From assembly GCA_021162205.1 (NCBI GenBank), contig JAGGZE010000044.1, positions 1 through 36,734 of the forward strand: a stretch of DNA of 36,734 bases. Direction: 5' to 3'. Numbering within the stretch: position 1 is the first letter of the stretch; each line of letters starts with the position of its first letter. The stretch comes from a bacterium. Its GTDB lineage: Bacteria; UBP14; UBA6098; B30-G16. Positions 3,101 to 21,754 of this stretch are shown piece after piece. The translations under genes were made by a program, and so were the position numbers. The notes beneath the pieces are model-generated. The model ran no database searches, had not been told where the DNA came from, and saw only the letters and a list, made by a program, of their open reading frames with translations.

Positions 3101-6100
3101 ATGAGGAAAATTTTTATTTCGATGTTAATTTTTATCGGTGTAATTGCAATATTTGCGGATGACCCGCCGACACCGCTTTCTGCTGCATTGGTGAATCCAG
3201 GATATAGATATGCACCATCGGGAGCGATAGCATTACAGGTTTCACCCGCTTGCACACTGAGTAATCCAGCGGGGACTCATTATCAATTCAGACGGGCATC
3301 TATTCTGTCAGCGAGTATGGATACGATAACAACATCGCCGCTCGCACTGACGAGTTATACATTTTACGATGCCGCCGATGGCGAAATTTATGAATATTAT
3401 GTCCGAGCTATTTATGAGGATGATACATCGTTCTGGTCGGATTCACTTATTCTAACTCACGACCTCGAGCCGCCGGAACATATATCCTATCTCGTCGCTC
3501 AACATTGTTGTTCGGAAACAGATTGTGCAATCTATCTTACCTGGCAGAAAGTCGATGATTTCGCATCATCCATAAATGGCTCCGAGGTTCGCGGTTATGG
3601 TATTTATCGTTCTCCGACAACAGGCGGTATCGATATTAGTTTAGGATATATTACTGCTACTACACCCGGGATTGCATTTATTTCATCGGATGGCAGCGAG
3701 ATTTACAATTTTATCGATACAACGATTACTCCCGGCGAAACATATAGATATACTGTTGTTGCGTTCGATAGTGCAGGTTATCCTGTCGCTGGACTCGGTC
3801 ATTTTCAGCATTATGATAATCCGATTGTTTTTGCGAGTGCTGTCGGACCTGGTGTATGCAGTTTTCCATTAAATGCGGTTTTAGAAGCTGTTCCAAGAGT
3901 TATCGATGCTACGAGTCAACTCGTGCAAATCGATGCCAGGGCTGTTTGGTTGAAATGGTCGAGACTTTACCAGTTTATTCGTGAGGACATCGCCTGTGGA
4001 ACTATGGATACCACAAATTGGACAAATGTCCCATATTATACATGGTCGATTCGCGATTGCCATCGATATAATTTTTATGCGAGAATTCGCGACGATGAAA
4101 CAGCGGACACATCGGATTGGTTTATGCGTGGACCGATGCTTACCGACCGCTCTGGTCCGCAGGCAATAGATTCCACTGTTTCACACCCCGAGGGCAGTGA
4201 AATTCGCACTCATTTCTATATTCACGATGAATCCATTCTCGATTGCTTGACCGACGAATGTGGAACTCATTGCGGTATCGGTGTGATGCAATACAAACTT
4301 TATCGTGTCGATTTCGACAATCTCGATTCTTTCTTCCCTTATGACCCATCGGATACCGACCATCTTTTGTATGTGTATAATGTAAATGATACTTTCCAAA
4401 CCGATGTTGACCTTCTATTCCGCGACGATGGCACGATTCTTCCGATGGAGGACAACGAAACATATATGTATATTCTCGTGGCTTTCGACAGTCTCGGACA
4501 TTATAATTATTTCTCGAACAATATGGATACGGCGACATCCGATTTGGGAATAGTGGACCCGGAAATTTTGCCACTCGGCACCTGGTCATCGGGAGATTGC
4601 GTTACATTGCAAATTTTGGATACGAGTTATTGCGATTTCGATTCGATTTATATCGAACAATCGATAAGTGCCGATTTCACTGCGGGTGCTGTCAGTTATG
4701 GACCATATCAAGTTCACGATGCTGTGTTCTCGAACCCCGATGATGGCGATTGCAACGATTTGGATACTTTGACTTTCCAGATATGCGGTCTCGAGGAAGC
4801 GCAATATTATTTCAGAATTTATGCCACAGACCGCAATGGTAATGTATCGGAATATTCTAATATTGTGAATACGAGATTCGATAATACTCCGCCGACACCA
4901 GTTTCGATAGATTCGTTATATTCGCGGGCAGTTTGCACAGATGAGATGAAAATCACGATTTGGTGGTCCCCAGCAGACGATGCAGGTGTCGGTGTTCAAA
5001 AATATAATATCTATCGTTCGGATACGCCCGGTGTATTGGGTTCGCTCGTTGCCACTATCGACCATAATCCGTTTTTTACATATTATAGTTGGACAGACGA
5101 TTTGCCCAATTCTACGAACAATTTTAGGGATAATTACTATACTGTCGCATCTGTCGATAATTTCGATTTGGAAAATATTAGTGGAATTCAAAATACATTT
5201 GGCAGCGGAACTCCACCTTATTCCGCAAGAATAGATACTGTGTATCCCGAATTTATTTCTGGTGAAATGTATGTCGTTATCGAATGGAGCGACACTACGC
5301 CTTACGATTACGGCACGGGCGGAATCGGCAATGCCTATCGTGTAGAACATAGTGCCGATGAAAGTTGGCTTTGTATCGGCGACCCCGATATTATCGATAT
5401 CGAAGACCCTACCTACGAACATCGGTTAGTTCTTCCACGCTCGATTATAGTCGGTTCACCACATAGATTTTTCCATATTGCGACTATCGACCCGTGGGGC
5501 AATGAAAGCGCATATTCTGTTCCTTACGAATATACCGATTCGAGTTGGGCAGCGGATTCTATGGTCGTTCATCTTTATTACGGATGGAATATGGTTGCCT
5601 TGCCTGTTCTGCCGAGAAGTCTAAACTATCGCGATATATTCCCATCGGCACTTTCTGCTCCTCTAAGTTATAGTGCCGATTCGGGTATAGGATATTTCTC
5701 CGCCGATACTATGCAAATCGGATACGGATATTGGATTTATAGCCCGGGCGATATGGATATCGAGATTCTCGGCTATCATATTCCATATATAACTCGTGAC
5801 CTCACAAATCCAGGATATTATCTTGTCGGTGGAATTAGCGATACGACAGGATTTTCGGTAACTCCACATGGTTCTTTGTTGACGAGCGATTTACTTTGGC
5901 ACAATCCTGCGATTGGAACTTATGAAATGGCATCGGAATTGATTCCTGGAAGAGGTTATTGGCTTTTTGTGAATGGCGCTTGCGAATACGATGTTCCTGG
6001 CGGTATGTTGAAAATTTATTCGGATATAGAACCTGAATGGGTCGGCAATATTACCGCTGGAAATCAAACTTTGATTTTCGGTATCGGCTCGGATAAACTC

Positions 6101-6637
6101 GATTTAATAATGCCACCGGCGCCACCCGAAAACGAAATTCCATCGTTGATTTCTGATGATAAAAGTTTCATTCGCGATATTTCTGAAAATAACGAATGGA
6201 CAGTGAAATTGCCCGAAAAGATGGAATTAAATTGGATTTCCAATGATATGCCAAAAGGTTTAATTCTTATCGCCGATAATCGCACAATCGATATGAATTC
6301 GGTCGATAAAATCGAATTGCCCGCTGGCGAATATAAAATTGTGCTGAAAAATTCGGTTCCCGATAAATTTGAGGTTTCGGCTCATCCAAATCCATTTAAT
6401 TTTAGCACATCGATTAAAATTTCCGCGCCTACCGACAACGATGCATCGATTGAGATTTATTCTATGGATGGCAAACAAGTAAAGACATTGTGGCATGGAA
6501 AATTAAATTCTGGCGAGCATACTTATATTTGGAATGGCGTGAACAATAATGGTGTGCAGATGCCTGCTGGAATTTATTTTGTGAAAACTGTTTTTGGAAA
6601 TAATGTATCGAATTTGAGGATTTTATTCATTAAATAG
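3101..6637 (+). CDS. Large secreted FN3-repeat surface protein with C-terminal T9SS/FlgD-like sorting-type domain
   Basis: Signal peptide; repeated FN3-like strands ('YEYYVRAIYEDDTSFWSD', 'YRYTVVAFDSAGYPV', 'YNIYRSDTPG'); 'GWNMVALPV...GYWIYSPG...GYWLFVNG'; C-terminus 'AHPNPFNFSTSIKI...IEIYSMDGKQVKTLW...YIWNGVNNNGVQMPAGIYFVKTVFG'. Confidence 0.85.
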   Translation: MRKIFISMLIFIGVIAIFADDPPTPLSAALVNPGYRYAPSGAIALQVSPACTLSNPAGTHYQFRRASILSASMDTITTSPLALTSYTFYDAADGEIYEYYVRAIYEDDTSFWSDSLILTHDLEPPEHISYLVAQHCCSETDCAIYLTWQKVDDFASSINGSEVRGYGIYRSPTTGGIDISLGYITATTPGIAFISSDGSEIYNFIDTTITPGETYRYTVVAFDSAGYPVAGLGHFQHYDNPIVFASAVGPGVCSFPLNAVLEAVPRVIDATSQLVQIDARAVWLKWSRLYQFIREDIACGTMDTTNWTNVPYYTWSIRDCHRYNFYARIRDDETADTSDWFMRGPMLTDRSGPQAIDSTVSHPEGSEIRTHFYIHDESILDCLTDECGTHCGIGVMQYKLYRVDFDNLDSFFPYDPSDTDHLLYVYNVNDTFQTDVDLLFRDDGTILPMEDNETYMYILVAFDSLGHYNYFSNNMDTATSDLGIVDPEILPLGTWSSGDCVTLQILDTSYCDFDSIYIEQSISADFTAGAVSYGPYQVHDAVFSNPDDGDCNDLDTLTFQICGLEEAQYYFRIYATDRNGNVSEYSNIVNTRFDNTPPTPVSIDSLYSRAVCTDEMKITIWWSPADDAGVGVQKYNIYRSDTPGVLGSLVATIDHNPFFTYYSWTDDLPNSTNNFRDNYYTVASVDNFDLENISGIQNTFGSGTPPYSARIDTVYPEFISGEMYVVIEWSDTTPYDYGTGGIGNAYRVEHSADESWLCIGDPDIIDIEDPTYEHRLVLPRSIIVGSPHRFFHIATIDPWGNESAYSVPYEYTDSSWAADSMVVHLYYGWNMVALPVLPRSLNYRDIFPSALSAPLSYSADSGIGYFSADTMQIGYGYWIYSPGDMDIEILGYHIPYITRDLTNPGYYLVGGISDTTGFSVTPHGSLLTSDLLWHNPAIGTYEMASELIPGRGYWLFVNGACEYDVPGGMLKIYSDIEPEWVGNITAGNQTLIFGIGSDKLDLIMPPAPPENEIPSLISDDKSFIRDISENNEWTVKLPEKMELNWISNDMPKGLILIADNRTIDMNSVDKIELPAGEYKIVLKNSVPDKFEVSAHPNPFNFSTSIKISAPTDNDASIEIYSMDGKQVKTLWHGKLNSGEHTYIWNGVNNNGVQMPAGIYFVKTVFGNNVSNLRILFIK

Positions 6638-6684: not shown

Positions 6685-9600
6685 ATGAAGCGACTTGGAA
6701 TTATAACAATAATGGCATTTTGGGTGATTTTGGTTTTCGCTCAGGGCGCACCGACATTGGAACCGCTCAATGAATTCACAGGAGGACATACCTGCCAGTT
6801 GAACTGGACATTGCCGGGTGGGACAGAACCTTATGTCTACCACATTCAGGTTTTTCGAGTCGATTCCGGTGAAACCGAATTTCCAGATTCTCTCGACGAT
6901 ATGTATTCTGATTCTATTTTCTCTATTTTTCCGATACCATTGACATCTGTTCCTGAAAATAGTTTCACCGTCGGATTGGATTCCACAAGCACTCTCGCCG
7001 ATGACCCTCTTGTCGATGGAGCGAGATATTGCTATCGAATTCGATACAAGTATGAACCTACTCCTGGCGATTATCTTTTCTCCGATTGGTCGAATGTGGT
7101 CTGTTCGACTCAGGATAATTCTCCACCCGTAGTCGGTGTGGATTCGCTTTGGATTTGGACGAATACGCCGACAGTTGCAGTGAATTGCTCATTATACGAT
7201 GATATTTCAAATCGAATAGTCGGGGCGAAACTCTATGTAAGAACTGATTCGATATCGCCATGGGAATTCTATTCGGAGCGAGATGTCTCTGGAACAGATA
7301 CTGTGGATATAGATTTCACATTTGCTCCCGACAGCGATGGCTATTATGAATTTTATATCGTAGGTATCGATGGTTTCGGCAATGAAACATCGCTATTCGA
7401 TGGAATGACTCCTGTTCCCTGTCATACCTGGACAAGATTCGATACGCAGCAACCCGAGGCATCTGTTGAGCCCGATGATTTCGACGAGTATTATACAACT
7501 CGTTCGATAGAAATGCCGTTCATCGCATCGGATACTTACAGCGGAGTAAAAGAAGTGCAGATATATTATAGGCGAGATTCGGGTTCAGCAACACTTTACG
7601 ATACTCGAATTTTCGAAGGCGAAATAGATATTTCAGAATTGGATACTTTTAATGTCGCAAACGATGGAGATTACGAAATTTATCTTATGGCGGTGGATTC
7701 TGCGGACAATATCGAATTATCGACAATAACAGAAGTTCAATTCTATATCGACACGAATTCTCCCGAATTCGCTGCAACCGATGCAGTCGATACCACGACA
7801 ATTTCACATCGTTACGATGTTCCAGCGGAATCGGGTTATAGCAACGATACGACAATTTTCGTAACTCCGACCGATGCTGTGGATTTACCTCCCGATGGCG
7901 ATGTCTATGTATCGACTATCGAAAGCGTGTATGTCGCTGAAAGTGAAGCATTCGGTGTCAATCTTCAGGTATTTCCATATTTTGATGGAGCACATTACGA
8001 ATATTCTATGACCGATGGCGATAGCGCGAGGAATATATATGTTAAGCTCGAGGATGTTGCAGGCAATTTTTCGATTGTTAATTCGCAGTCGATTTATCTC
8101 GATACCGATGCACCGACTATACGCAGTATCGAAATTTACGATATCGATGCCTCAATTTCCACCGATACCACTGATAATGTGCAGGTTAAGGTTCATATCG
8201 ACCCAGACCCCGATAGTTCGCCATTCTATAAAGTTTTTCTAACACAGGACTCCACAGAATTGAATAATATTCCAGCCGATGGATGGCGGGATATCGCCGA
8301 TACGTTGCTTTTTACATTCGATGGTCTTGTCGAAAGCGGATGGGTATACACTTATGCAGTGCTTAAAGATTCCGCTGGAAATGTATCCAATGCTGTCTAT
8401 GATTCGATTTACTACAATGCAAGTCCATTAAAATACATTCATTTAATTTCACTGCGAGATTTCGATGGTCCCGATACGACTGGAACATATACCGATACGA
8501 TTGCTATCGAGGTAACTCTTACTTATGGAAGGGACATCGATTCGATATCGATTTGGGATGATGGCGCAGGTCCGTCGTTTTATGCAGTAATTACACCTAC
8601 TGGAGCGGAAACAACTGTTACTATCGACCACGAATTTTCATCTGGCGATGGTGTTCGATGGATTTATATTCAGGGTAAAAGCATTGTCGATGCTATTCCG
8701 ACAGATGAGGAATCTTTAAGTATTATACTCGATACGAGAAAACCGATTTTGCCATCCATCGTTGTCGGGGATGCATCGACAGGATTCGATTTAACTGATA
8801 CATCGGAGATTTCCGATTCGGCATATACGAACAATCCTCTTGTCGATGTTGATTTCAATAGTTCTTATGACCCGACCTCTCCTATCGGTTCGGGAATATA
8901 TCATTTGAAACTAATTTCATCGGGAAGCGAAGTGGATACCGAATATACATCGACGATAACATTCGCACTTCCAGATACCGATGCTGTTCGTTTTGTGAAT
9001 GGATATGTTCAGGATTCGGCAGGAAACTGGTCCGACCCGTTTATTCATCAGATTACACTCGATAGATATCGTCCGACGATAATATCGGTGGTTCTTCAGG
9101 ATAGTGCTGCCGGTGATGAGGATTATACGAGTGGTTTGAAAGTTCGAGTTGTTACTGTCGCAGATGATGGTTCTATGGGCAATCCCGCATATATCGCATT
9201 TTTCGAGGACCCTGACCTATGGGCTCAAAATCTCTACGACCTATGGCAACCGTATAATAGCGAACTTTACTATACATTCGATAATCCCGATACGGGAACG
9301 AAAATTCTTTATATCGCTGTTAAGGACCGAGCGGGAAATATCAGTCTTATGACAAGCGACGATATTTTCTATCGGACATCGATTGTATGCAATTTTGCCC
9401 TTTACAATGTCATTCGCGGCACAAGCCATACGGTTTATACAAATTCACCCACAGTAGGTGTTCAGTTTAGTCCACTCGGGACACCGCCCGCTTATTATTT
9501 CTTGAACGAGGATTCGACTGCCGATTTCGATTGGATAACTTATCCATCGACAGGGATGACTACATTTACGATTTCCGCCGATGAGGGTCAAAAAGTCGTC

Positions 9601-11259
9601 TATGGATGGCTTCGCTCGGTTTCGGATATTATTTCAGCGAGAGCATCCGCAACGATTATTCTCGATGAAACTCAACCAGATTTGCCATACAGTTTCTCGA
9701 TTTGGGATACGACAAGTAGCGAGACCTGGCCCACTACATTTAAGGCACATATGGGCTGGTCGAATGAATTGTATGTATATGGTTCTATCCCCGAGGCAGA
9801 CGATACACTTTCGGGTGTCGAATCGCTGCATTTTCTTGGACCTTTCGAGGATGACCTTTGGGCATCGAGACCGCATACCGCTGTCGATGGCGGAATTATG
9901 GTGACTTATCCTAATGATAGCGTCGAACTTATAATCGATGGCACCGATGGCAGTTTCGATATCACAGGTGGAGCGATGGATGGTGCTGGAAACTGGAACG
10001 ATGTAACAGTTAATGCCGGATACGATACTATTGCGCCGACTTTGGCTATGATTCCATTTACTCACGACGACCCGACTACATTGCCATCTATTATTCCGTT
10101 GTCTATTACCGATAATCATCTTTGGAAAGTATGTTTCAAAATAAACAGTCCCGATACGATTTTCTGTGCGGAATATCGTGAGGAATGGGGAACTTATCCC
10201 GATTTCGATGTCGATTTCCCGATTGCGGATTCACTTTCACCCGATACGCTTTATTTCATCGAAATTGTAGCGGTCGATTCCGCTGGAAATCCGAGTAATG
10301 TGATTACATGGGTTCCTGGAAAATTGGAATATTTTGTTGTGGACCCGCTGGATACTTTTGATAGCGAATTCACGGGGACCGATACTGTGATTACGATTGT
10401 CGATGCCGATATTGCACCCAATTTTATGCGGTTTGCCGAGGATTCATCCAATCTTATGGATATGGACTGGATACCGTTCGAGCGAACTCATACTTTCCCT
10501 TTGAGCAATGCTAGAAATGAAATGAAATATGTATATGCTCAGTTCAAATTGGATGAATATGAAACACCCGTGTTGGTCGATACGATTTTCTTGGATACAA
10601 TTCCACCGACAGTGGTTCGTGTCGATGCTTTCGATCCGGAAACTAACGACCCGAACTGGTCGAGTTCACAGGATGTAAAAATTGTGGCAACGAGTCCAGA
10701 CGATACTCCACCCGGTGTGGTTTATGCGTTTAAAATTTCCGAGTCTCCGAATTTCGATTATCACACTACGATTGTTCTGATGGATGAATATTTTTCTGGA
10801 ATATACACGGTCGCCGATGTTCCATATCAACCGACAACCGACGACCCACAGGAACTTTGGGATGTTTTAATGGCTGGTGCAAGAATGCTCTATGTTCAGG
10901 TGCTCGATAGAGCGGAGAATCCAACTCCGACTAAAACTACATCGATTGTCGTAGATTGGGATCCAGCCGAGGTTATCAATTTCCCGAACCCGTTCAATCC
11001 CGATGAGCGTGAGACATATATCAGAATTAAGGCGAAAAACACAGGTGTATCTGTGGATATAAATATTTACGATATGTTCGGAAATCCCGTGTGGAATACA
11101 AGTTATACATTGAAAGCGGATTCCCGTGAAGCCGATATCGCATGGGATGGCACAAATTCCAATGGCGATATAGTCGGCAATGGCGGATATATTTGTGTAG
11201 TCGATTTCGGTGATAGATTAATCAAGCGAAAAATTGCCGTATGGAAAGGCAGTGATTAG
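6685..11259 (+). CDS. Giant secreted protein with tandem Ig-like repeats and C-terminal FlgD/T9SS-like domain
   Basis: Signal peptide; at least seven recurring 'D(S/R/V)AGN'-type motifs (AVDSADN, KLEDVAGN, VLKDSAGN, YVQDSAGN, AVKDRAGN, AMDGAGN, AVDSAGN, VLDRAEN); C-terminus 'INFPNPFNPDERETYIRI...VDINIYDMFGNPVWN...IAWDGTNSNGDIVGNGGYICVVDFG'. Confidence 0.85.
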   Translation: MKRLGIITIMAFWVILVFAQGAPTLEPLNEFTGGHTCQLNWTLPGGTEPYVYHIQVFRVDSGETEFPDSLDDMYSDSIFSIFPIPLTSVPENSFTVGLDSTSTLADDPLVDGARYCYRIRYKYEPTPGDYLFSDWSNVVCSTQDNSPPVVGVDSLWIWTNTPTVAVNCSLYDDISNRIVGAKLYVRTDSISPWEFYSERDVSGTDTVDIDFTFAPDSDGYYEFYIVGIDGFGNETSLFDGMTPVPCHTWTRFDTQQPEASVEPDDFDEYYTTRSIEMPFIASDTYSGVKEVQIYYRRDSGSATLYDTRIFEGEIDISELDTFNVANDGDYEIYLMAVDSADNIELSTITEVQFYIDTNSPEFAATDAVDTTTISHRYDVPAESGYSNDTTIFVTPTDAVDLPPDGDVYVSTIESVYVAESEAFGVNLQVFPYFDGAHYEYSMTDGDSARNIYVKLEDVAGNFSIVNSQSIYLDTDAPTIRSIEIYDIDASISTDTTDNVQVKVHIDPDPDSSPFYKVFLTQDSTELNNIPADGWRDIADTLLFTFDGLVESGWVYTYAVLKDSAGNVSNAVYDSIYYNASPLKYIHLISLRDFDGPDTTGTYTDTIAIEVTLTYGRDIDSISIWDDGAGPSFYAVITPTGAETTVTIDHEFSSGDGVRWIYIQGKSIVDAIPTDEESLSIILDTRKPILPSIVVGDASTGFDLTDTSEISDSAYTNNPLVDVDFNSSYDPTSPIGSGIYHLKLISSGSEVDTEYTSTITFALPDTDAVRFVNGYVQDSAGNWSDPFIHQITLDRYRPTIISVVLQDSAAGDEDYTSGLKVRVVTVADDGSMGNPAYIAFFEDPDLWAQNLYDLWQPYNSELYYTFDNPDTGTKILYIAVKDRAGNISLMTSDDIFYRTSIVCNFALYNVIRGTSHTVYTNSPTVGVQFSPLGTPPAYYFLNEDSTADFDWITYPSTGMTTFTISADEGQKVVYGWLRSVSDIISARASATIILDETQPDLPYSFSIWDTTSSETWPTTFKAHMGWSNELYVYGSIPEADDTLSGVESLHFLGPFEDDLWASRPHTAVDGGIMVTYPNDSVELIIDGTDGSFDITGGAMDGAGNWNDVTVNAGYDTIAPTLAMIPFTHDDPTTLPSIIPLSITDNHLWKVCFKINSPDTIFCAEYREEWGTYPDFDVDFPIADSLSPDTLYFIEIVAVDSAGNPSNVITWVPGKLEYFVVDPLDTFDSEFTGTDTVITIVDADIAPNFMRFAEDSSNLMDMDWIPFERTHTFPLSNARNEMKYVYAQFKLDEYETPVLVDTIFLDTIPPTVVRVDAFDPETNDPNWSSSQDVKIVATSPDDTPPGVVYAFKISESPNFDYHTTIVLMDEYFSGIYTVADVPYQPTTDDPQELWDVLMAGARMLYVQVLDRAENPTPTKTTSIVVDWDPAEVINFPNPFNPDERETYIRIKAKNTGVSVDINIYDMFGNPVWNTSYTLKADSREADIAWDGTNSNGDIVGNGGYICVVDFGDRLIKRKIAVWKGSD

Positions 11260-11407: not shown

Positions 11408-13201
11408 ATGAGGTGGATTCGAGTATTAACTACGATAGTAATTTTAGTGGGATTTTCAGCGTTATTCGCACAATTCGGACAGGCGGGAGATTTTCTTCGG
11501 TTCGGCTCTAATGCACGCTCACTCGGTATGGGTGGAGCATATACTATGCTGGTCAGAAATGCCGATGCACTTTTGTATAATCCCGCAGGATTAGCGAATA
11601 CCGAACGATGGGAACTTTCGTTGACTCACGCTCAACTGTTTATGGATTCTCGATATGAATTTCTTTCATTTGCCTATCCAATCGATTTGCGAAGTGCTGC
11701 TGGAATCGCTATCGCCGATATCGGTGTTTCAAATTTCGATGGCAGAGACCAGTTTGGAACATCCACAAACACTTTTGCTATGCACAATCTCGGTGTTATT
11801 GCAGGTTATGGAAGATGGATAATGCAGAGGAAATTTCGAGTCGGCGGTTCTGCAAAATTTATAATGACATCGATGGACGATAATTCCGCTATGGGTTTCG
11901 GTGGTGTCGATATCGGTGTTATAACAAAGGATGTATTCAGAAAATTCAGATTCGGTCTCGCAGTTCAAAATCTTGCCGCACTCGATGTCGCCGGCGATAA
12001 ACTTCCGATGACTATTCGCGGCAGTGTCGGTTTTCGCGCGTTGCGGAATCTTTATCTGCTCGCCGATGTCGATATGGTCGGCAGCGCATTTAAGCCCAAA
12101 GTCGGTGCGGAATATAAATTGAATAGATATGTAACACTTCGCGCTGGATACAATATGACCGAAATCACCGCAGGTCTCGGATTGGCGATGGAGAGATTGA
12201 TAAGTTCACTTCGAGGAATGGGACATCCGCTGTTAGATTACAGTGCTGGTATGATGAATCCGCTTGGCAACGATTTCGCTCGTGTTTCATTGACTTTGCG
12301 TGGAGAGGAGAAAACTCCTCCGCCACCACCACCGAAAGTCTCTATCTGCGACCATCTCAGTGAATATGAAGGTTCGTTAGAAAAGGATGGACTCATCGGC
12401 GCGAGAGCTAATGTGCTTTTCGGATATTGCAATTTCATATATGAGAGTGTCGATGCGGATTTGAAAACCGAGCCGAATCTAAAATCCGCTTACGATTATT
12501 TCCACGAAGCTTATGCCGGAAAATTCGGAAGCAATTGGACACAATCTATTATGACTCTCGAGGGCGCAAGCGAGGTATTTAACCAGCGTATTCATTATAT
12601 GTTCGCAGAATCGAAGATGAACAAAGAGCCGATTTCCGAGGAGACTAAGAAACTCGTTCAGGATTTGATTTTCGTCGGCGGTGATAGCACGCGATACGAC
12701 CCCAGACTTCAATACGATTTGGCTTATACTTATGAGATGCTCGGATACCTCGATAGTGCGAAAGGATTATATGGCAAGCTTGCAAATAGAGATGAACTCA
12801 AAGACCCGGTTCATCCGCTTTCGATGTTCAGACTCGCTTATCTTTTACGGGAATCCGACCCCGATAGTGCGATAGCATTATTGGATAAATTAACGAGGAT
12901 TTTCCCATGGGGTTTTTACGATGAACAGGGTGAGCGGATTTCCTATCCTATGTTCCCGAAATATAAGGATAATATGCTTGCCGATGATGCACTACTTCTG
13001 ATGGGTGATATTTATGCCAACAAGGGTGGGCCGGAAAATAATCGGAAGGCATTGATGGCATATTTGGATGTATTATATTTCTATTCCGATGCGGAAAATA
13101 GTGTTTTGAGAAATGCAGCAGAAAGAGCCGCAAATGCTTATGAAACACTTGGAATGACAGATGAAGCTCAACTTATGCGTCAACGCGGTGGGAATCTTTA
13201 A
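11408..13201 (+). CDS. PorV/UPF0164-like outer-membrane barrel fused via a polyproline linker to a TPR-like C-terminal region
   Basis: 'QAGDFLRFGSNARSLGMGGAYTMLVRNADALLYNPAGLANTERWELSLTHAQ' is typical of the PorV family; linker 'EEKTPPPPPPKVS'; helical TPR-like C-terminus ('YDLAYTYEMLGYLDSAKGLYGKL'). Confidence 0.8.
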   Translation: MRWIRVLTTIVILVGFSALFAQFGQAGDFLRFGSNARSLGMGGAYTMLVRNADALLYNPAGLANTERWELSLTHAQLFMDSRYEFLSFAYPIDLRSAAGIAIADIGVSNFDGRDQFGTSTNTFAMHNLGVIAGYGRWIMQRKFRVGGSAKFIMTSMDDNSAMGFGGVDIGVITKDVFRKFRFGLAVQNLAALDVAGDKLPMTIRGSVGFRALRNLYLLADVDMVGSAFKPKVGAEYKLNRYVTLRAGYNMTEITAGLGLAMERLISSLRGMGHPLLDYSAGMMNPLGNDFARVSLTLRGEEKTPPPPPPKVSICDHLSEYEGSLEKDGLIGARANVLFGYCNFIYESVDADLKTEPNLKSAYDYFHEAYAGKFGSNWTQSIMTLEGASEVFNQRIHYMFAESKMNKEPISEETKKLVQDLIFVGGDSTRYDPRLQYDLAYTYEMLGYLDSAKGLYGKLANRDELKDPVHPLSMFRLAYLLRESDPDSAIALLDKLTRIFPWGFYDEQGERISYPMFPKYKDNMLADDALLLMGDIYANKGGPENNRKALMAYLDVLYFYSDAENSVLRNAAERAANAYETLGMTDEAQLMRQRGGNL

Positions 13202-13215
13202 CTTTGGAGTTTATT

Positions 13216-13755
13216 GTGCATAAACTCATTTTAATGGTATGTATCTTGTTCTTTGTAATATTTGTTCGTGGCATTGAAAATGAAGATTCATTGTGGATTC
13301 ATATCGAGAATGTTAAACCCGATATCAATAAAGCTGATAAGGTGGAATTTTTGATTCAATGGTCGATATACGATAGTCCATTCGAGGATAGCGCTTATGG
13401 CGATTGGTATCTTGTCGAAAATGAGAATCATATGTTTTTGATTCAATGTTCTGCCGACAGCGAATTTGAAAAATTAATTTATTCCGATAGCACCGATGCA
13501 AATAATATCGTATTCGATGGACTCGATATCGATAGAGAATATTTTTTAAGAGTGAAAATACTAAATTCGAAAAATCCGATGAAATCTGATGTAGCATCGG
13601 GCGGATATTTTACGAGGTATGCACGGGCAAGGCAGACAAGAAGAGATGCGGAAACTGATAAATTTTATATCGTAGTTGGGATTTCTACTATTTTAATAAT
13701 TTTAGGATTTGGGATAATGATATTTTATTTGATTAGACAAAAGTCGAAAACCTAA
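13216..13755 (+). CDS. Small signal-peptide protein with FN3-like periplasmic domain and C-terminal TM helix
   Basis: The ORF track gives a TTG start at 13204; GTG at 13216 is better placed behind the SD-like TTTGGAG. 'DSLWIHIENVKPD...' resembles the N-terminus of the next gene; C-terminal TM 'FYIVVGISTILIILGFGIMIFYLI' then basic RQKSK. Confidence 0.68.
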   Translation: MHKLILMVCILFFVIFVRGIENEDSLWIHIENVKPDINKADKVEFLIQWSIYDSPFEDSAYGDWYLVENENHMFLIQCSADSEFEKLIYSDSTDANNIVFDGLDIDREYFLRVKILNSKNPMKSDVASGGYFTRYARARQTRRDAETDKFYIVVGISTILIILGFGIMIFYLIRQKSKT

Positions 13756-13769
13756 ACAAAGGAGGAACG

Positions 13770-15110
13770 ATGCGCAGGGGTTGGTACATGCTGGTATTTC
13801 TGATGATTTTTTTGGTGCCGATGTGTATTAGAGCAGAGGCAACGAAAATCGCGGATATGGATTCTGTATGGGTAAATATTGTATCTGCTGATGAAGCTAA
13901 GGATGAACAGGGTAATTTGCAGGTAACAATCGCTTGGAAAGTATTTACACGAAAATACAACAAGCGCAAGGGAAGTTATTCTGAGTGGCAGGAGATAAAA
14001 GCACCCGAGGGATTCACATTTGGTTCTGAAGTAACTACTGATTCAGCATTTTCTAATGTTATCGAATCACATGAACTTCAAGAAATGAACTATACTTTCC
14101 ATAATCTTAATTTTGCTCAGCAATATTGGTGGAGAGTTAGATTGATTTCGCCTGAATGTCAATCTAAATGGGATTTCGCCGAAGGAATACAATATAAACA
14201 CGAGGTTCAAATTACGAAAAAAAGAGGATTAATCTCAGGTTATTTCCACTTTGTCAAAAGTGGCGGTCTTGTTTTTATGATTCCAATGCATATCTTGCTT
14301 TTATTTGGAATTATCACATGGATTTTAATTTGGCGAAGATTGTGGTTTGCAAATATTTTCCCACCGAATAAGCCATCGTTTGGGTATCGTATTCTTCCTG
14401 TGGACCGCACCGGTAAAACCGAGATTCACAGTGATAAAGGGAATATTTTCTTGAGAGAGGTTGCTAAATATTGGTCGAAGGCTATGGAAGCTATGTCGGT
14501 CGGTCCCGAACATTTTGATAACCCCGATGAATATATTAAAGCAGATAGGCAAACGCAGGAAGAAATAGAGAAGAAACTCTGGCTCGAAATGGGATTGCCA
14601 AATGTGGAAAAAGCGATAGAAATTTGCCGAAATGGTGTTCCAGGAGTCAAACTTCCCAAAAAACCACTCGAATATTCTACTGTTAGAGTTTTACTAGCAG
14701 CACTTGAAAATCATAGGTCTAATAGAAACAATTTCTGGGCATCACAAGAAATGGACAGAGCAGCAGAAAATACAGTGCTTAAAGAAATCGATGGTCTTAA
14801 AGGCTGGGAAACAACAGGACTTTGGGCAGTCGGTTCTATCGAGCCGATGATGGGGCTATTTGGAACTGTTGTTGGTATTCGAGGTTCATTCGGTAAAATT
14901 CAGGAAACTATCGCTATGAATCCTAATGCCAAAATCGCACAAATTGTCCCAGCACTCGCAGGTGGTATCTATGTTGCACTTATTACAACAATCGTCGGTT
15001 TGACATTCGGTATCCCAATGATGCTTACGCATTATTATTATCGTGGCAAGGTCGATTGGATTTTTGGGAAATGGGAAGAAATTATGACAGATATATTAAA
15101 TGAAGCATAA
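13770..15110 (+). CDS. ExbB/TolQ/MotA-family proton channel with N-terminal periplasmic FN3-like domain
   Basis: SD AAAGGAGGA; signal peptide; FN3-like region; C-terminal 'WAVGSIEPMMGLFGTVVGIRGSFGKIQE...IVPALAGGIYVALITTIVGLTFGIPMMLTHYYYRGKVD' is typical of ExbB/TolQ. Confidence 0.88.
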   Translation: MRRGWYMLVFLMIFLVPMCIRAEATKIADMDSVWVNIVSADEAKDEQGNLQVTIAWKVFTRKYNKRKGSYSEWQEIKAPEGFTFGSEVTTDSAFSNVIESHELQEMNYTFHNLNFAQQYWWRVRLISPECQSKWDFAEGIQYKHEVQITKKRGLISGYFHFVKSGGLVFMIPMHILLLFGIITWILIWRRLWFANIFPPNKPSFGYRILPVDRTGKTEIHSDKGNIFLREVAKYWSKAMEAMSVGPEHFDNPDEYIKADRQTQEEIEKKLWLEMGLPNVEKAIEICRNGVPGVKLPKKPLEYSTVRVLLAALENHRSNRNNFWASQEMDRAAENTVLKEIDGLKGWETTGLWAVGSIEPMMGLFGTVVGIRGSFGKIQETIAMNPNAKIAQIVPALAGGIYVALITTIVGLTFGIPMMLTHYYYRGKVDWIFGKWEEIMTDILNEA

Positions 15111-15125
15111 AGGAGGTGAACCTCG

Positions 15126-15662
15126 ATGAAACATAGAGCAGAGGAACTTCCAAAGGCCGCATGGACATCGTTGATAGATATTATCTTTCAACTATTGATA
15201 TTTTTTATGGTTACTATGGCAGTTGGAACGATGCAACAACAAGCGAATGCTGCGGTTGCAGGCGCAGAAAAGAAAAATTTACCCAAACTTCCTCCTGTAG
15301 AGAAACTGGCAACTCCTCAAGAATTTAGTTCGGGATTTCTTCTGCACATCAATAAAATCAATGAGAAACCATTTAATGGCGAACTTGGAGCTTATATACT
15401 CGATTCTGATGTCGCAACTGTGGATGATGCTAAGAAGGATTCTACAGGAAAGCACGGTCCATATACTCTGAAAAAGGCGAAAGGTATTCTTGAAAAGAGA
15501 ATCGAGAATATATTTTTTACAACTGGTGAACCTCCACGACTTGAAATTCGTGCTCATAAAGACACACCTTTCGGTTATATTCTCGGTATTATGGAGTTTT
15601 GCGACCAAGATTCGATAGAAGTTGTAGGTTTCAGGTTCGCGAATGTTGTTAAACAATCATAA
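15126..15662 (+). CDS. ExbD/TolR-family protein (first copy)
   Basis: SD AAAGGAGGTGA; N-terminal TM with the conserved Asp: 'AAWTSLIDIIFQLLIFFMVTMAV'; ExbD-like C-terminus 'RLEIRAHKDTPFGYILGIMEFC'. Confidence 0.88.
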   Translation: MKHRAEELPKAAWTSLIDIIFQLLIFFMVTMAVGTMQQQANAAVAGAEKKNLPKLPPVEKLATPQEFSSGFLLHINKINEKPFNGELGAYILDSDVATVDDAKKDSTGKHGPYTLKKAKGILEKRIENIFFTTGEPPRLEIRAHKDTPFGYILGIMEFCDQDSIEVVGFRFANVVKQS

Positions 15663-15674
15663 GGGAGGTAAAAT

Positions 15675-16247
15675 ATGAGATTACGAGCAGAACCCCTCCC
15701 TGAAACAGAATTAACATCGATGGTGGACATAATATTCCAGTTGATGATATTTTTTCTCGTTACTATGTCCGTTATGCCATCGGTTAAATCTGCACCTCAG
15801 GTCGAGGGAATGATGAACTTGCCAACACCCAAAAAAGGTGATTCGGAAGCATCTGTTCTTGTTCAGTTCCATAGAACACCCGCGGGCGGTATCGACTATT
15901 ATGTTTTTCAGGGAAACGATAAGTCCGCTGAATTTTATCAGTGGTTCAAGGACAAGCGAAGTGTGATTAAATCTTCTGGTGCATATCCTGCATTTAGAAA
16001 TATTTCTTCCAATAAATATCAGCTTGTTTATAATGAAAAGACCTTGAAAGGTTTTTTGATGGAGATTCGAGATAATGACCCAGCAGTAATATTGCGGGCT
16101 CCAAGTAATCTTCCTTATGGTGATGTTGTCAAAGTAACGGGATTTATGCATACTTTAGGAATAAGCAAAATTGCTTGGGTTAAAGGAACACTGGCGAATT
16201 TGAATATCGAAATTAAAAAGGGCAGAGCAAGGAGGCGGGGAGCATGA
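15675..16247 (+). CDS. ExbD/TolR-family protein (second copy)
   Basis: SD GGGAGG; 'ELTSMVDIIFQLMIFFLVTMSV' with the conserved TM Asp; ExbD-like C-terminal region. Confidence 0.86.
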   Translation: MRLRAEPLPETELTSMVDIIFQLMIFFLVTMSVMPSVKSAPQVEGMMNLPTPKKGDSEASVLVQFHRTPAGGIDYYVFQGNDKSAEFYQWFKDKRSVIKSSGAYPAFRNISSNKYQLVYNEKTLKGFLMEIRDNDPAVILRAPSNLPYGDVVKVTGFMHTLGISKIAWVKGTLANLNIEIKKGRARRRGA

Positions 16248-16792
16248 GATATAAAAAACTAATATTCGCATTTCTCTTGCTCGCTGGGATAATTTCTATT
16301 ATCGGATGTGGCGATAAAAGTGGTGAATCGTATATTAACTTACCGGAAGGTCCCAAAATACTTTTCAGAGGTGGAATCGGTAAAATTACTATTCGATATG
16401 TGCCTCCACCGGATCCGATATTTAGAATTTCAAATGCAATGGAATATGTCGAATTTCCTTACATTAAGGATAATTATGGTATTCCTGATAAACCGCTGAT
16501 TATCGATTATACGGTTGAAAATTCTGTTATTGCTCCGGTCGTTATTCAAAGAACGAGTATCCCGCAGTTTAATGATTATATTTTAAGAATTCTTCAGAGC
16601 TGGACTTATACCCGTTTTGGCAAAGGACCGATGCGAATTTCCGTGGATGTCGCAAAAAAGAGAATTTCCGTGGATGTATCGAATATTCGTCTTGCAGAAC
16701 AAGAACCTGGACGACCTATGCCAAAGATGGGAAATATGAGAGAATTGGTAAAGCAAATGGGCTTTACTGTTGTTACTGGGAATTTGTATTAG
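16244..16792 (+). CDS. Lipoprotein with TonB-C-terminal-domain-like fold
   Basis: 4-nt overlap with the previous gene; lipobox 'GIISIIGCGD'; 'PLIIDYTVENSVIAPVVIQRTSIPQFNDYILRILQSWTYTRFGKGPMRISVDV' follows the TonB-CTD pattern. Confidence 0.6.
   Translation: MRYKKLIFAFLLLAGIISIIGCGDKSGESYINLPEGPKILFRGGIGKITIRYVPPPDPIFRISNAMEYVEFPYIKDNYGIPDKPLIIDYTVENSVIAPVVIQRTSIPQFNDYILRILQSWTYTRFGKGPMRISVDVAKKRISVDVSNIRLAEQEPGRPMPKMGNMRELVKQMGFTVVTGNLY
16635..16677 (+). repeat. Direct repeat GAATTTCCGTGGATGT x2 (27-nt period) within the TonB-like lipoprotein
   Basis: Copies at 16635-16650 and 16662-16677; encodes 'RISVDVAKKRISVDVS'. Confidence 0.9.
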
Positions 16793-16804
16793 TTTTTGTT
16801 TTAT

Positions 16805-16839
16805 GGGGAGTCGCTTTCATTTGAAATTTGCGGCTCCCC
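16805..16839 (+). terminator. Intercistronic stem-loop (terminator- or processing-like)
   Basis: GGGGAGTCGC (16805-16814) / GCGGCTCCCC (16830-16839), 10 bp with one G.T; lies in the gap between the lipoprotein and the TPR-propeller gene. Confidence 0.6.
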
Positions 16840-16898
16840 CCTGAAAATTTGTTTAAATTTGGAAATAATGTAAATTAACATAATTTTGGAGGATTAGA

Positions 16899-19800
16899 AT
16901 GAAGAAAGTAATAATAATGCTGGGACTTCTGGGGCTTATTTTTGCTCAGGAGGTCGACCTCGCTTCGATTACCGCAAAACTCGACAAAGGCACTAAATTG
17001 TATCAAGAGAATAAGTTAGAGGATGCACTCGTTCCATTTCAGGAGGCGGCAAATGGTTTCGAGCAGATGCTACAGGGTGTTCTTTCTCCCGAGGATGAAG
17101 CTTATGCTACATATTTTTTATCGACAACGAAATATTATATCGCTCGTATCCAGAAGGATGTTTCGGGATTCGAGGCTACATCGAAATTATTCAATGAATC
17201 CGCCGCTGCATTCAAAAGTCTCGACATTGTTGGTGAGGAGTATGTTCGCTCGAAGTATATGAAAGCTCTTTGTTCATTTAGACTTTATCAATTGGCTAAT
17301 ACCGAACGAGCACAAATTAAAAATCTCGACCCGGCTATCGGTGATTTCGACAATTTTATCAATGATGAAGATGTTATGAAACACGCCGACGATTTTCAAG
17401 ATTTAATCGACAATGCTCAGTATTTTCTTGGATACTGTCAATATCGGCTTGCTTTTCTGAAAAGTTTCGATATGGGACAATTGTCCAATGCTAAACAGAA
17501 TTTTGAAAAAGCTATTACATCTTTCCAATCCGCTAAGAAATCTCCCGATGAAAAAATTTCTCTTGCCGCATCGCTGATGGAAACTAACTGCCATTATATG
17601 ATTGCGAGATTATTTTTCCGTGTTAGCGATGATGATTGGAGTAAATATAAGTTATCGAGCAAAGGAAGATTGTTTGCCAGCGAGGATGAAATAAATAATT
17701 CGATAAGTCTTTTGGATAAAATGATTTCTGCTGCTGGCACGCAAAAGGAGCTTCAGATGTTCGGTAAAGTAGGTAAAGTTATAGATAATGTAGCATTAGG
17801 TTCTGTCGGTGTTAAGGAAAAATTGAACGATGCAATGAACACTATGACGACTCTTAAAGATAACAAAATCTGGGGAAAAGACATTCTTAGCAGACTCGCG
17901 TATGGTTCACTTTTGAATTACTTGATATACAGTGGTCCACCTAAAGCGGCAATAACAGGATTTAATAGAATTTCGGGTTCGGAACCCGAAGGACTTTATT
18001 GGATAGGTATGGTTCACTTTATTCAGGGAACTTATGACAAAGCTAATGCTAAATTGACTGCGTTTTCAGGGCAAATCGGTTCGAATCGTTCGACTCGAGC
18101 AAGAGAGCTTGTTGCCGATGCTAAATATCGTCAGGCAGAATGCCTTTTCTGGATGGGAGTTAAACAGGAGAATATTGCATTCCTTTCACAAGCCGATGCG
18201 ATTTATAAAGCATTGGAAAATCCTAAAGGTGAATACTACGATTTTCTCACGAAGGATATTCGGGATGTTGTTACTATCCGAAGATTTCTTATTGGAATCG
18301 AGAATAGTCTTGGGAAACAACAGGATATAGGCACTTTCGATGCTGCGATGTCGCTTGCGGGACTTCAACTTCCCAAAGATGCCGATAAATATCTTAGTGC
18401 GGGGAAATATTTTCTTCAGAAAGCTATCGAGGTCGCTGCGGATAAGAGAAAAGTATCGCTTAAATTCGCTATTCACGCATTCGATAAAGTTATCAATGCT
18501 AATGTATCGTCGGGTATTAAAAATAAATCGAGATTTATGAAAGGTGTCGCGCTTGTCAAGCGTGCGACTATCGAGGAAGATAATGTCGCTAAAAGCACGG
18601 TCGATGAGGCGAAAAATGTGCTCGATGCTTGCACTTCGCCCTATAATAATGAAGCAAAATATGTTATTGGAATCGGATATTTTAATAATAATGATTATGG
18701 GAAAGCCCTGCCGATTCTTCAACAATTGAAAGCTAAAGGACATATTCGTGCTGCATTTACTTATGCTCTTGTTCAAATCGAGAAAAATAATTGTTCGAGC
18801 GCCGCTAAAGCACTCGGTTCTGTTAAGATTACAATTAAAGACCGCACGGACCCGATTTATCAAAAAGCCGACCTCGAACTTTCAAAACTTTCCTGTCGAG
18901 GCGAGGCAAAGGGTGCAAGTTCACTCGCGCATTTGTCTGAAGCGCCTATGACTTATGAAAATCTTGTCGATGAGGAAGCTGAAAGAGCACGCAAAAAATC
19001 GGAAGCTTTGTTTATATGGCAACGTTCATCTAAATTTATCGAAACACCCGATATCGATGAACTTGTTCCCGATAGACCACCCGAGACAAATGTAAAAATC
19101 GAAATTGCTATCGAACCCGCCGGCGGTGAAGAAAATATTATTATCGATGGTGATGAAAAATCTGCTCAACTTGTTGAAAATTCTGTATATAAGGTTATTC
19201 TAAATCGTGGAACACATAGGATTCAAATTAAGAAAAAGGGTTTTTATCTTTTAGATGACAAATTGAAAGTTACCAAATCCGAACGAATTAGTTTTAAACT
19301 TTCTAAAGCTGTTCGTTATACTTCTGCAGGAGAAATCGCTGGGACTGCGAATGCTCTCGCCGTTGCTGCGAATGAAAACGAAATTTTCGTTGCACCGATA
19401 GGGAAAAAGTCCATTGTGAAAATGAATAAAGATGGCAAGAAAATTAGCGAATATTCATATTCGGCTCTCGGTATCGGTGGAGTCAGTGGACTCGCTCTCG
19501 ATGGCGAAATGCTTATTATCGTGGACCCCAAGCAAAATCAAGTGGTTGCACTTTCGCTTGGAGGCGAGGAAAATAATATGGAACCGACCGAAATCGATAC
19601 GAGTGAATCTGTCGAAAAACCTACCGATGAAAACGATACATCGGATACAGTAGAGAAAATTGTTCCCATTGCCAATGCAAAAAAATCCAATGTTTCTGTT
19701 ATCGCATACAGCGGCGAAACTTATGGTTCTATTCCACTTTCGAGACCTGCTGGAATTTATGCTGATGATGGAGTTTATTATATCACAGATGCTGGGAATC

Positions 19801-20225
19801 ATCGAGTTTTAGTTTTCGATGGCAATTCGTTCAGGAAGGAAATTGGCGTCGATACACTCGTTCATCCAATAGATGTCGCTGCTAAAGGTGATATGCTTTA
19901 TATTGCCGATATTGGTAATGGCAAAATCGTTCGATTTTCCACTGCTGGTGAGTTTATAGATAAAGTCGAATTGAAAAACCAAACTCAACCATCGGGGATT
20001 TTTGTTAGCCCTGAAGGATTCGTTTTCGTAAGCGATTTCGTTAAAAACAGTATTGTCAAATACACTGAGGATTTGGAACCTCTTTCGGTTGCTGGTGAAA
20101 ACATTGTTGCACCTCGAGGTATCGCGCAAATTGGCAACGGTCCCGAATCTGTCGTTTATGTATCCGATTTATCGGGTTTGACAATTCTCAAAGGCGGATG
20201 GGACAATACATATATGCCTAAATAA
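16899..20225 (+). CDS. Secreted TPR-PEGA-beta-propeller (NHL-like) protein
   Basis: Signal peptide; N-terminal TPR-like helices; PEGA-like 'VKIEIAIEPAGGEENIIIDGDE...YKVILNRGTHRIQIKKKGFY'; C-terminal NHL-like blades ('SRPAGIYADDGVYYITDAGNHRVLVFDG', 'HPIDVAAKGDMLYIADIGNGKIVRFS', 'QPSGIFVSPEGFVFVSDFVKNSIVKY'). Confidence 0.78.
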   Translation: MKKVIIMLGLLGLIFAQEVDLASITAKLDKGTKLYQENKLEDALVPFQEAANGFEQMLQGVLSPEDEAYATYFLSTTKYYIARIQKDVSGFEATSKLFNESAAAFKSLDIVGEEYVRSKYMKALCSFRLYQLANTERAQIKNLDPAIGDFDNFINDEDVMKHADDFQDLIDNAQYFLGYCQYRLAFLKSFDMGQLSNAKQNFEKAITSFQSAKKSPDEKISLAASLMETNCHYMIARLFFRVSDDDWSKYKLSSKGRLFASEDEINNSISLLDKMISAAGTQKELQMFGKVGKVIDNVALGSVGVKEKLNDAMNTMTTLKDNKIWGKDILSRLAYGSLLNYLIYSGPPKAAITGFNRISGSEPEGLYWIGMVHFIQGTYDKANAKLTAFSGQIGSNRSTRARELVADAKYRQAECLFWMGVKQENIAFLSQADAIYKALENPKGEYYDFLTKDIRDVVTIRRFLIGIENSLGKQQDIGTFDAAMSLAGLQLPKDADKYLSAGKYFLQKAIEVAADKRKVSLKFAIHAFDKVINANVSSGIKNKSRFMKGVALVKRATIEEDNVAKSTVDEAKNVLDACTSPYNNEAKYVIGIGYFNNNDYGKALPILQQLKAKGHIRAAFTYALVQIEKNNCSSAAKALGSVKITIKDRTDPIYQKADLELSKLSCRGEAKGASSLAHLSEAPMTYENLVDEEAERARKKSEALFIWQRSSKFIETPDIDELVPDRPPETNVKIEIAIEPAGGEENIIIDGDEKSAQLVENSVYKVILNRGTHRIQIKKKGFYLLDDKLKVTKSERISFKLSKAVRYTSAGEIAGTANALAVAANENEIFVAPIGKKSIVKMNKDGKKISEYSYSALGIGGVSGLALDGEMLIIVDPKQNQVVALSLGGEENNMEPTEIDTSESVEKPTDENDTSDTVEKIVPIANAKKSNVSVIAYSGETYGSIPLSRPAGIYADDGVYYITDAGNHRVLVFDGNSFRKEIGVDTLVHPIDVAAKGDMLYIADIGNGKIVRFSTAGEFIDKVELKNQTQPSGIFVSPEGFVFVSDFVKNSIVKYTEDLEPLSVAGENIVAPRGIAQIGNGPESVVYVSDLSGLTILKGGWDNTYMPK

Positions 20226-20230
20226 AAAAT

Positions 20231-21754
20231 ATGGGGAAAATGATGTCCCAAAAATGCCGATTAGAGATTAGATGTTTATATCTTTTAAGAGGACTCCTGT
20301 TTTTTTCGGGAGTCCTTTTGGTTTTTGTATCGAGTCTCGGTGCATCACAACTCGATTCTCTCGAAAACTGGACGAATAAAACTTTCTGGGGACATTACAT
20401 TTCACCGGATAGCTTAAAAATGGATTACTATATCGCATCGTCATCGAATGATTTTCCACTTATGGTGAGACTTGCCGCTGGAATTTCATATCTTAATTAT
20501 AATACAATCGATTCTGCGATGTATGATATCGCATATTGTTTCATTCGTAGCGGAGATTTTTCATCGGCGGGCGATGCAATCGATAGAGCGGAAAATATTT
20601 GGGGTGAAAATGCACAGTTGGTTTATTTGAAAGCACTCGCAGAACTTTATTCGGGTAATTCAGGGAAAGCTCGAAAGATTTTGAAAAAGAAATCGAAAGA
20701 TGTATCGACCGACGATGATAAAAAGTTTATATCGATTGCATTGGGGATGGTCGAAATTCTCGATGGAAAAACTCGTAAAGGATTCACTCATTTGCAAAGG
20801 GCTGAAAATCTCACGCCGATTGGATTCGACTCGCCATTATATGAGATAAGATTGTTCGGGCAGACAGCCAATTACAATGCAATCGTTGGAACTTTATGGA
20901 TAAGACAATATTATGGTTTTCCGTCGATTATTATAAGAATGCGTCCTATTTTTCAGATGATGGACGGTTCGATATATAATGGTGCTATTTTGGGAATCGA
21001 ACAGGTTGCATCGCTTTTCGGAAGTCCATATTTTCAAGCCGATGTTCATCGAAGTTCGCAGATAGTTATTCCTCGATGGAGTGGAATACCTACAAGTGCC
21101 AAAATGTCGATGTGGATTGTTTATATCGATTCGCGAAATGAATTCGATTCATTATTAGTGAAAGTAATCGGCAAGGTCGAGGGTTTTCCTCCTGCGGATA
21201 ATTTCACTGCGGCTATCGAGGATTTGCGAAAGGATGCGATAAAAATGTGGTTCGATTCACTTGCGAAACCGACTAATGAAATCGGTGAGCCATTTTGGCG
21301 GTTGGTTCTTTCCGCTAAAGTCGCATCTGCGCTGGCGGATTCGACACAATGGGAATATGGCGAGGCAATGGTGGATAGTTTTATAGATGTCGCCCCATAT
21401 ATTACCGAACTTTATCTGTGGCGAGGCGCTTTTTCGCTATTTTTAGAAAATTATGACGACGCATTCAAATATTTCTCGAAACCATTGGAGAAAAACCCCC
21501 ATAATATCGATGCTCTTTACGATGCCGGTATCGCCTGTTATTTTCTCGATGATTATGAAACAGCCGAATCCCTTTTTATAGCGGTAATAGAATGTCAGAA
21601 AGATTTTGCGCCGCCTTATTTTGCACTCGGAGTATTAAATCAGGATGTGTTCGAGGATTATAAAAAAGCGACCGATTACTATGAAAAATATTTGAAATTG
21701 ACTCCATACTTAAAAATCGAGGTCGAAAAGTGGATAGACGAAATGAAACAATAA
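20231..21754 (+). CDS. Secreted TPR-repeat protein
   Basis: Signal-peptide-like 'LLRGLLFFSGVLLVFVSSLGAS'; C-terminal TPRs 'YLWRGAFSLFLENYDDAFKYFSKPLEKNPHNIDALYDAGIACYFLDDYETAESLF'. Confidence 0.72.
   Translation: MGKMMSQKCRLEIRCLYLLRGLLFFSGVLLVFVSSLGASQLDSLENWTNKTFWGHYISPDSLKMDYYIASSSNDFPLMVRLAAGISYLNYNTIDSAMYDIAYCFIRSGDFSSAGDAIDRAENIWGENAQLVYLKALAELYSGNSGKARKILKKKSKDVSTDDDKKFISIALGMVEILDGKTRKGFTHLQRAENLTPIGFDSPLYEIRLFGQTANYNAIVGTLWIRQYYGFPSIIIRMRPIFQMMDGSIYNGAILGIEQVASLFGSPYFQADVHRSSQIVIPRWSGIPTSAKMSMWIVYIDSRNEFDSLLVKVIGKVEGFPPADNFTAAIEDLRKDAIKMWFDSLAKPTNEIGEPFWRLVLSAKVASALADSTQWEYGEAMVDSFIDVAPYITELYLWRGAFSLFLENYDDAFKYFSKPLEKNPHNIDALYDAGIACYFLDDYETAESLFIAVIECQKDFAPPYFALGVLNQDVFEDYKKATDYYEKYLKLTPYLKIEVEKWIDEMKQ
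20287..20327 (+). terminator. Terminator/attenuator-like hairpin inside the 5' end of the TPR gene
   Basis: AAGAGGACTCCTG (20287-20299) - TTTTTTT - CGGGAGTCCTTTT (20307-20319), then GGTTTTTG. Confidence 0.65.

Follow-up and report, generated by a model that had tools for sequence, protein, structure and literature searches.

The window analyzed here, the whole stretch of 36,734 nucleotides (nt) at positions 1 to 36,734 of contig JAGGZE010000044.1 (GCA_021162205.1), comes from a bacterium of a candidate phylum that carries the NCBI label UBP14. It contains a rightward-transcribed operon in which two giant genes precede a PorV-family barrel gene, an ExbB-ExbD-ExbD set, a lipoprotein gene, and genes for TPR proteins. 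The eight open reading frames from 11408 onward and all seven gaps between them (2, 14, 15, 12, −4, 106, and 5 nt) are exactly as described in an earlier note on this DNA. That note had the operon begin at the barrel gene, with the two giants as upstream neighbors ending in C-terminal domains (CTDs) of the kind found on type IX secretion system (T9SS) cargo; the CTD-type C termini hold up, although the start was misplaced, since both giants are collinear in relatives and the conserved unit therefore begins at 3101. Amino acids are abbreviated aa and transmembrane TM in the list of genes.

3101..6637, + strand: giant1, a 1,178-aa exported protein (TIGR04183; collinear homologues in relatives)
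6685..11259, + strand: giant2, 1,524 aa, the putative dedicated cargo (full-length homologues; CTD motif)
11408..13201, + strand: gene 1, PorV-family barrel with a C-terminal TPR domain, putative carrier or shuttle (NF033709 and TPR matches)
13204..13755, TTG start, + strand: gene 2, FN3-like domain and TM segment (paralogue of the gene 3 N terminus)
13770..15110, + strand: gene 3, ExbB/TolQ-type predicted proton channel with an N-terminal FN3-like periplasmic domain and a long cytoplasmic linker (PF01618; structural model)
15126..15662, + strand: gene 4, ExbD1 (PF02472; TM aspartate D18 invariant in the alignment)
15675..16247, + strand: gene 5, ExbD2 (PF02472; TM aspartate D18 invariant in the alignment)
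16244..16792, + strand: gene 6, lipoprotein with a predicted TonB-CTD-like fold (lipobox; structural model and Foldseek)
16899..20225, + strand: gene 7, periplasmic TPR-PEGA-NHL beta-propeller protein, putative scaffold or adaptor (domain matches)
20231..21754, + strand: gene 8, TPR protein found in only part of the relatives (TPR match)

The existence of this cluster is confirmed, as is its conservation; in its present form it is confined to the phylum, and it combines known families in a new way. Among 384 sampled genomes, 17 from the candidate phylum and 367 others, the operon is present at least in part in 16 of the 17, and the order giant1-giant2-PorV/TPR-ExbB-ExbD1-ExbD2-TonB-like lipoprotein-TPR/PEGA/NHL does not differ among the four families of the phylum wherever the contig is long enough; gene overlaps accompany the collinear order in relatives with intact contigs. 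Conserved linkage in other genomes, which the earlier note had named as a check on its proposal, is thus seen across the phylum. For the first 328 positions of gene 3, matches are present in 16 of the 17 phylum genomes, and in the 367 others only short FN3-domain stretches match; the gene 6 lipoprotein is matched in 15 of the 17, with one weak match among the others. Full-length matches to gene 1 are confined to the phylum, whereas its barrel alone matches widely elsewhere. The occurrence of gene 8 varies among relatives, and gene 2, a diverged paralogue of the gene 3 N terminus for which profile searches returned no domain or family match, is confined to the family to which the window belongs.

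The barrel encoded by gene 1 scores 98.8 bits against the NCBIfam PorV_fam model NF033709, above the subfamily cutoff of 90, and falls below the PorV and PorQ equivalog cutoffs (23.9 bits against 250 for PorV). Its C-terminal TPR region had been overlooked in the earlier domain list, which otherwise stands for the PorV-like, FN3/TM, ExbB, two ExbD, TPR/PEGA/propeller, and TPR proteins. Gene 3 matches MotA_ExbB (PF01618) over residues 323 to 436 at 62 bits, and its predicted structure, of low confidence (mean predicted local distance difference test score [pLDDT], 61), matches TolQ/ExbB structures, with the N-terminal domain matching FN3 scaffolds. Because the ExbB/TolQ-type motifs GLFGTV and ALITT of gene 3 and the TM aspartates of both ExbD proteins are invariant in the alignments, it is plausible that the three proteins form a functional proton channel. 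Gene 6 has a lipobox with an invariant cysteine (C22), and with no TM segment after the signal peptide, it lacks the inner-membrane helix anchor of Ton-type proteins. Searches of its sequence against Pfam and PDB profiles, TonB included, gave nothing significant, but in a Foldseek search with the predicted structure (mean pLDDT, 53, low confidence) TonB CTDs take the top four places and at least 10 of the best matches overall (best E value, 0.03; probability, 0.98), which supports, and does not prove, a TonB-CTD-like fold. In gene 7, NHL repeats are found in all nine homologues and a PEGA domain is detectable in three of the nine, together with TPR.

The two giants differ in their repeats and are alike in the type of their C termini. 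Giant1 has FN3-type repeats and a FlgD_ig/Por_Secre_tail CTD (TIGR04183, 32.1 bits against a cutoff of 23), and giant2 has an array of Ig-like repeats and a FlgD_ig-like CTD ending in GNGGYIC...KRKIAVWK that does not reach the TIGR04183 model. Homologues of giant2 in phylum relatives are full length (36 to 73% identity), and the GNGGYIC motif is common to giant2 and to the giants located 5′ of PorV in two genomes outside the phylum (G077 and G286, below). Against PDB profiles giant2 has a single weak match, to a flagellar protein at its C terminus. It was considered as a PorU sortase and rejected, as the PorU model matches the C-terminal region only and a domain search found no peptidase domain. 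For type B cargo carried by an SprF-like shuttle, the cargo gene is reported to lie directly 5′ of the shuttle gene, as in the CTD-PorV pairs here (PMC12618676). Giant2 and the PorV/TPR protein look like such a cargo-carrier pair, and the ExbB, ExbD, and TonB-like components look like the pair's own motor.

ExbB, ExbD, and a TonB-like domain are also the components of a Ton-type uptake system, in which the PorV-family barrel would serve as an unusual outer membrane channel, and gene 1 is distantly related to FadL-type barrels (a weak Toluene_X match). This reading is very unlikely, however, as the operon includes no TonB-dependent receptor, its TonB-like protein is without an inner-membrane anchor, and the genome of the window has a separate ExbB-ExbD-ExbD-TonB-like locus (L144, G000:C24, 4976 to 7147), with similar loci in G014, G002, G008, and G015. 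A Tol-Pal-like system for envelope stability or cell division in this phylum is the least probable of the readings considered. TolQ is the top-scoring ExbB-type model for gene 3, and the TPR and propeller proteins are reminiscent of CpoB and TolB, but domain searches of the window and of the relatives' loci found no TolB or Pal within the operon, a separate locus in G002 is ordered like TolQ-TolR-TolA-TolB-Pal-CpoB, and neither fixed giant CTD partners nor a PorV barrel is predicted by a Tol function. The Ton-like (G000) and Tol-Pal-like (G002) loci are assigned by gene order and sequence features rather than by a family scan.

Components of a T9SS are found elsewhere in these genomes. The translocon protein SprA (SprA_N, PF14349) is over the cutoff in 14 of the 17 phylum genomes, including that of the window (G000:C31, a 1,977-aa frame), and Por_Secre_tail (TIGR04183) matches are present in all 17, at 68 to 150 per genome. 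In the same profile searches, GldM (TIGR03517) was found in none of the 17, and neither GldL (TIGR03513) nor GldN (TIGR03523) was over the cutoff in any, although the Gld and SprA models are trained on Bacteroidota, and strongly diverged homologues could escape them. The whole-genome picture that the earlier note had called for is thus one of SprA and many CTD proteins, no detected GldL, GldM, or GldN, and separate Tol-Pal-like and Ton-like loci; PorLMN are undetected and the locus differs from the ordinary Tol-Pal and Ton loci, and the outcomes that the note had named as refuting its proposal have thus not been seen. A lipoprotein with Big_7 and FGE-sulfatase domains encoded within the window (22983 to 24476, +) was considered as PorK and is a doubtful candidate: it scores 73 bits, far below the GldK/PorK cutoff of 350, and is unmatched in the operon loci of relatives, although a number of these stretches stop short of the corresponding position. 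The window also codes for an M14 zinc carboxypeptidase (25147 to 26631, +) whose C-terminal Por_Secre_tail stretch is just under the Pfam cutoff and which is likely ordinary CTD cargo, and, farther upstream, for Memo-like and AMMECR1 domains in one fused protein (318 to 1775, +).

These distributions could be taken to indicate that the operon is the general T9SS motor of the phylum, acting in place of PorL, PorM, PorK, and PorN for all CTD cargo: SprA and CTD proteins are widespread, GldL, GldM, and GldN are undetected, and the operon is nearly as common as the cargo. Yet most phylum genomes have at least four PorV-family matches, only one of which is inside the operon, and the two giants are conserved over their whole length as fixed, noninterchangeable partners. 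Furthermore, of the 108 SprA-positive genomes among the 384, 106 have no detectable GldM, and most of these are without a UBP14-type operon; GldM was found in only three genomes, two of them among the 108, such that SprA is far more common than its known motor at the thresholds used. A general motor is therefore unlikely, and a dedicated unit is preferred on two grounds, the fixed and single partnership of the giants and the presence of several PorV matches per genome. The earlier proposal of an ExbBD-based envelope machine is partly supported: it is tied to T9SS-type parts, and its exact form occurs in one phylum only, but a general replacement of PorLM as the T9SS motor is a less likely extension.

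Neighborhoods of the best PorV matches outside the phylum (60 loci, one per genome) show that related arrangements occur elsewhere. An ExbB- or MotA-type gene lies near PorV in 6 of the 60 loci against 1.1 expected, given how many such genes each genome has and how much sequence was retrieved (Poisson, ∼0.001, a figure that is indicative only, since PorV score rather than chance governed the choice of loci and it was the first 20 of them that suggested making the test). G077 has the order giant-PorV-TPR-ExbB-ExbD-ExbD-TonB (each domain is supported by Pfam), G189 has CTD giant-PorV-ExbB-ExbD-TonB, G117 has ExbB-ExbD-ExbD-TonB-CTD protein-PorV, and G286 has giant-PorV-TPR-lipoprotein-ExbB at a contig end. 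In G225 (L171, G225:C37), the gene for a PorV-TPR fusion is followed by co-directional genes for a TPR protein of 719 aa, a protein of 1,304 aa, and a MotA/MotB-type pair, which is a motor of the flagellar stator type. These scattered PorV-ExbB-ExbD-TonB clusters suggest that the pairing recurs, and no paper linking PorV with ExbBD was found in the open-access literature. In more than half of the loci (32 of 60), the gene directly 5′ of PorV codes for a CTD protein, a cargo-carrier arrangement.

The MotA/MotB pair adjoining the PorV-TPR gene in G225 also bears on a different reading, in which the operon is a surface-motility (gliding) motor like Myxococcus Agl-Glt, independent of SprA-type secretion, with the giants as adhesins. 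The motor formula is identical, in that a single TolQ-like protein is combined with two of the TolR-like kind and is accompanied by a TonB-motif protein and by TPR proteins (PMC3169522), and giant proteins with Ig arrays fit an adhesin role. Nonetheless, the giants have T9SS-type CTDs and a PorV partner rather than Glt components (no search aimed at these or at AglZ and MglA was made), and motility is not known for these uncultured cells; a gliding motor of this kind is distinctly unlikely. A broader generalization from the outside loci is doubtful but somewhat more attractive: SprA-type secretion outside Bacteroidota may generally be powered without GldL and GldM, with ExbB-ExbD-TonB- or MotAB-type motors and PorV-family carriers constituting a second, independent energizing route, of which the UBP14 phylum would have the most elaborate form.

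The reading preferred here, with a probability of roughly 0.45, is that the operon is a dedicated cargo-carrier-motor unit, driven by the proton motive force, for two giant surface proteins, a mechanism drawn from gene content, order, conservation, and domain families. FN3-ExbB with ExbD1 and ExbD2 would form a proton-driven inner-membrane motor. The TonB-CTD-like lipoprotein and the TPR/PEGA/propeller protein would relay its movement to the TPR tail that the PorV-family barrel would extend into the periplasm. The barrel would be the cognate carrier of giant2, and perhaps of giant1, bound through their CTDs, and the motor would either expel the complex of giant and carrier from the SprA translocon or move it over the surface. 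The unit would then work like an energized type B arm of the T9SS, built from ExbBD/TonB parts instead of PorLM/KN. An ExbB/ExbD/TonB-driven route outward has a precedent in the export of PopC through Oar (PMC6434023).

Several observations weigh against this dedicated unit. SprA is unlinked to the operon, being on another contig, and of the six motor-PorV loci outside the phylum, SprA is found in G286, G117, and G185, with none detected in the other half (G077, G189, and G225). One phylum genome, G015, has SprA and CTD proteins and none of the operon parts tested (FN3-ExbB, the lipoprotein, and full-length PorV/TPR), although it is a fragmented metagenome-assembled genome in which gene loss and an assembly gap are indistinguishable. 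CTD-PorV pairs without a motor are the more common kind, so not all such pairs require one, and the structural models are both of low confidence (mean pLDDT, 53 and 61).

In Bacteroidota, the ejection of cargo from the SprA translocon depends on energy relayed along a chain that the GldLM motor drives (PMC12635249). Of the 108 sampled SprA-positive genomes, 106 are without detectable GldM, and for one phylum the operon is a concrete, testable candidate for the SprA energizer. This phylum seems to lack the usual motor of its protein export system, and the operon might supply the missing power.

Each of the known systems with which the operon can be compared shares some of its parts. PorE of the Porphyromonas gingivalis T9SS likewise combines TPR and a beta-propeller in one protein; the earlier comparison of gene 7 with PorE is sound to this extent, but no OmpA domain was found, and gene 7 has a PEGA domain in place of the CRD and OmpA domains of PorE. 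Tol-Pal shares a TolQ/TolR-type motor and TPR and propeller proteins, whereas the operon is without TolB, Pal, or an anchored TolA, and the Tol-Pal-ordered locus is separate. Myxococcus AglRQS-Glt shares outer membrane parts in addition to the motor formula given above, although no PorV, CTD giants, or FN3-ExbB is reported in Agl-Glt. In the Myxococcus ExbB-ExbD-TonB system with Oar, ExbBD/TonB energy also drives a protein outward across the outer membrane, but Oar belongs to the TonB-dependent transporters and has a TonB box, whereas here the barrel is of the PorV family and a lipoprotein carries the TonB-like domain. In Flavobacterium, GldL, GldM, GldK, and GldN move SprB-SprF. The operon departs from this type B arm of the T9SS in that its motor is of the ExbB/ExbD type with an FN3 domain, two ExbDs, and a TonB-CTD-like lipoprotein, GldL, GldM, and GldN being undetected, and in that the putative carrier is a PorV-family barrel with a TPR tail, not SprF. 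The two are alike in having a giant CTD protein followed directly by a barrel carrier and a proton-driven inner-membrane motor (carrier and motor both predicted in the case of the operon), and SprA in the genome.

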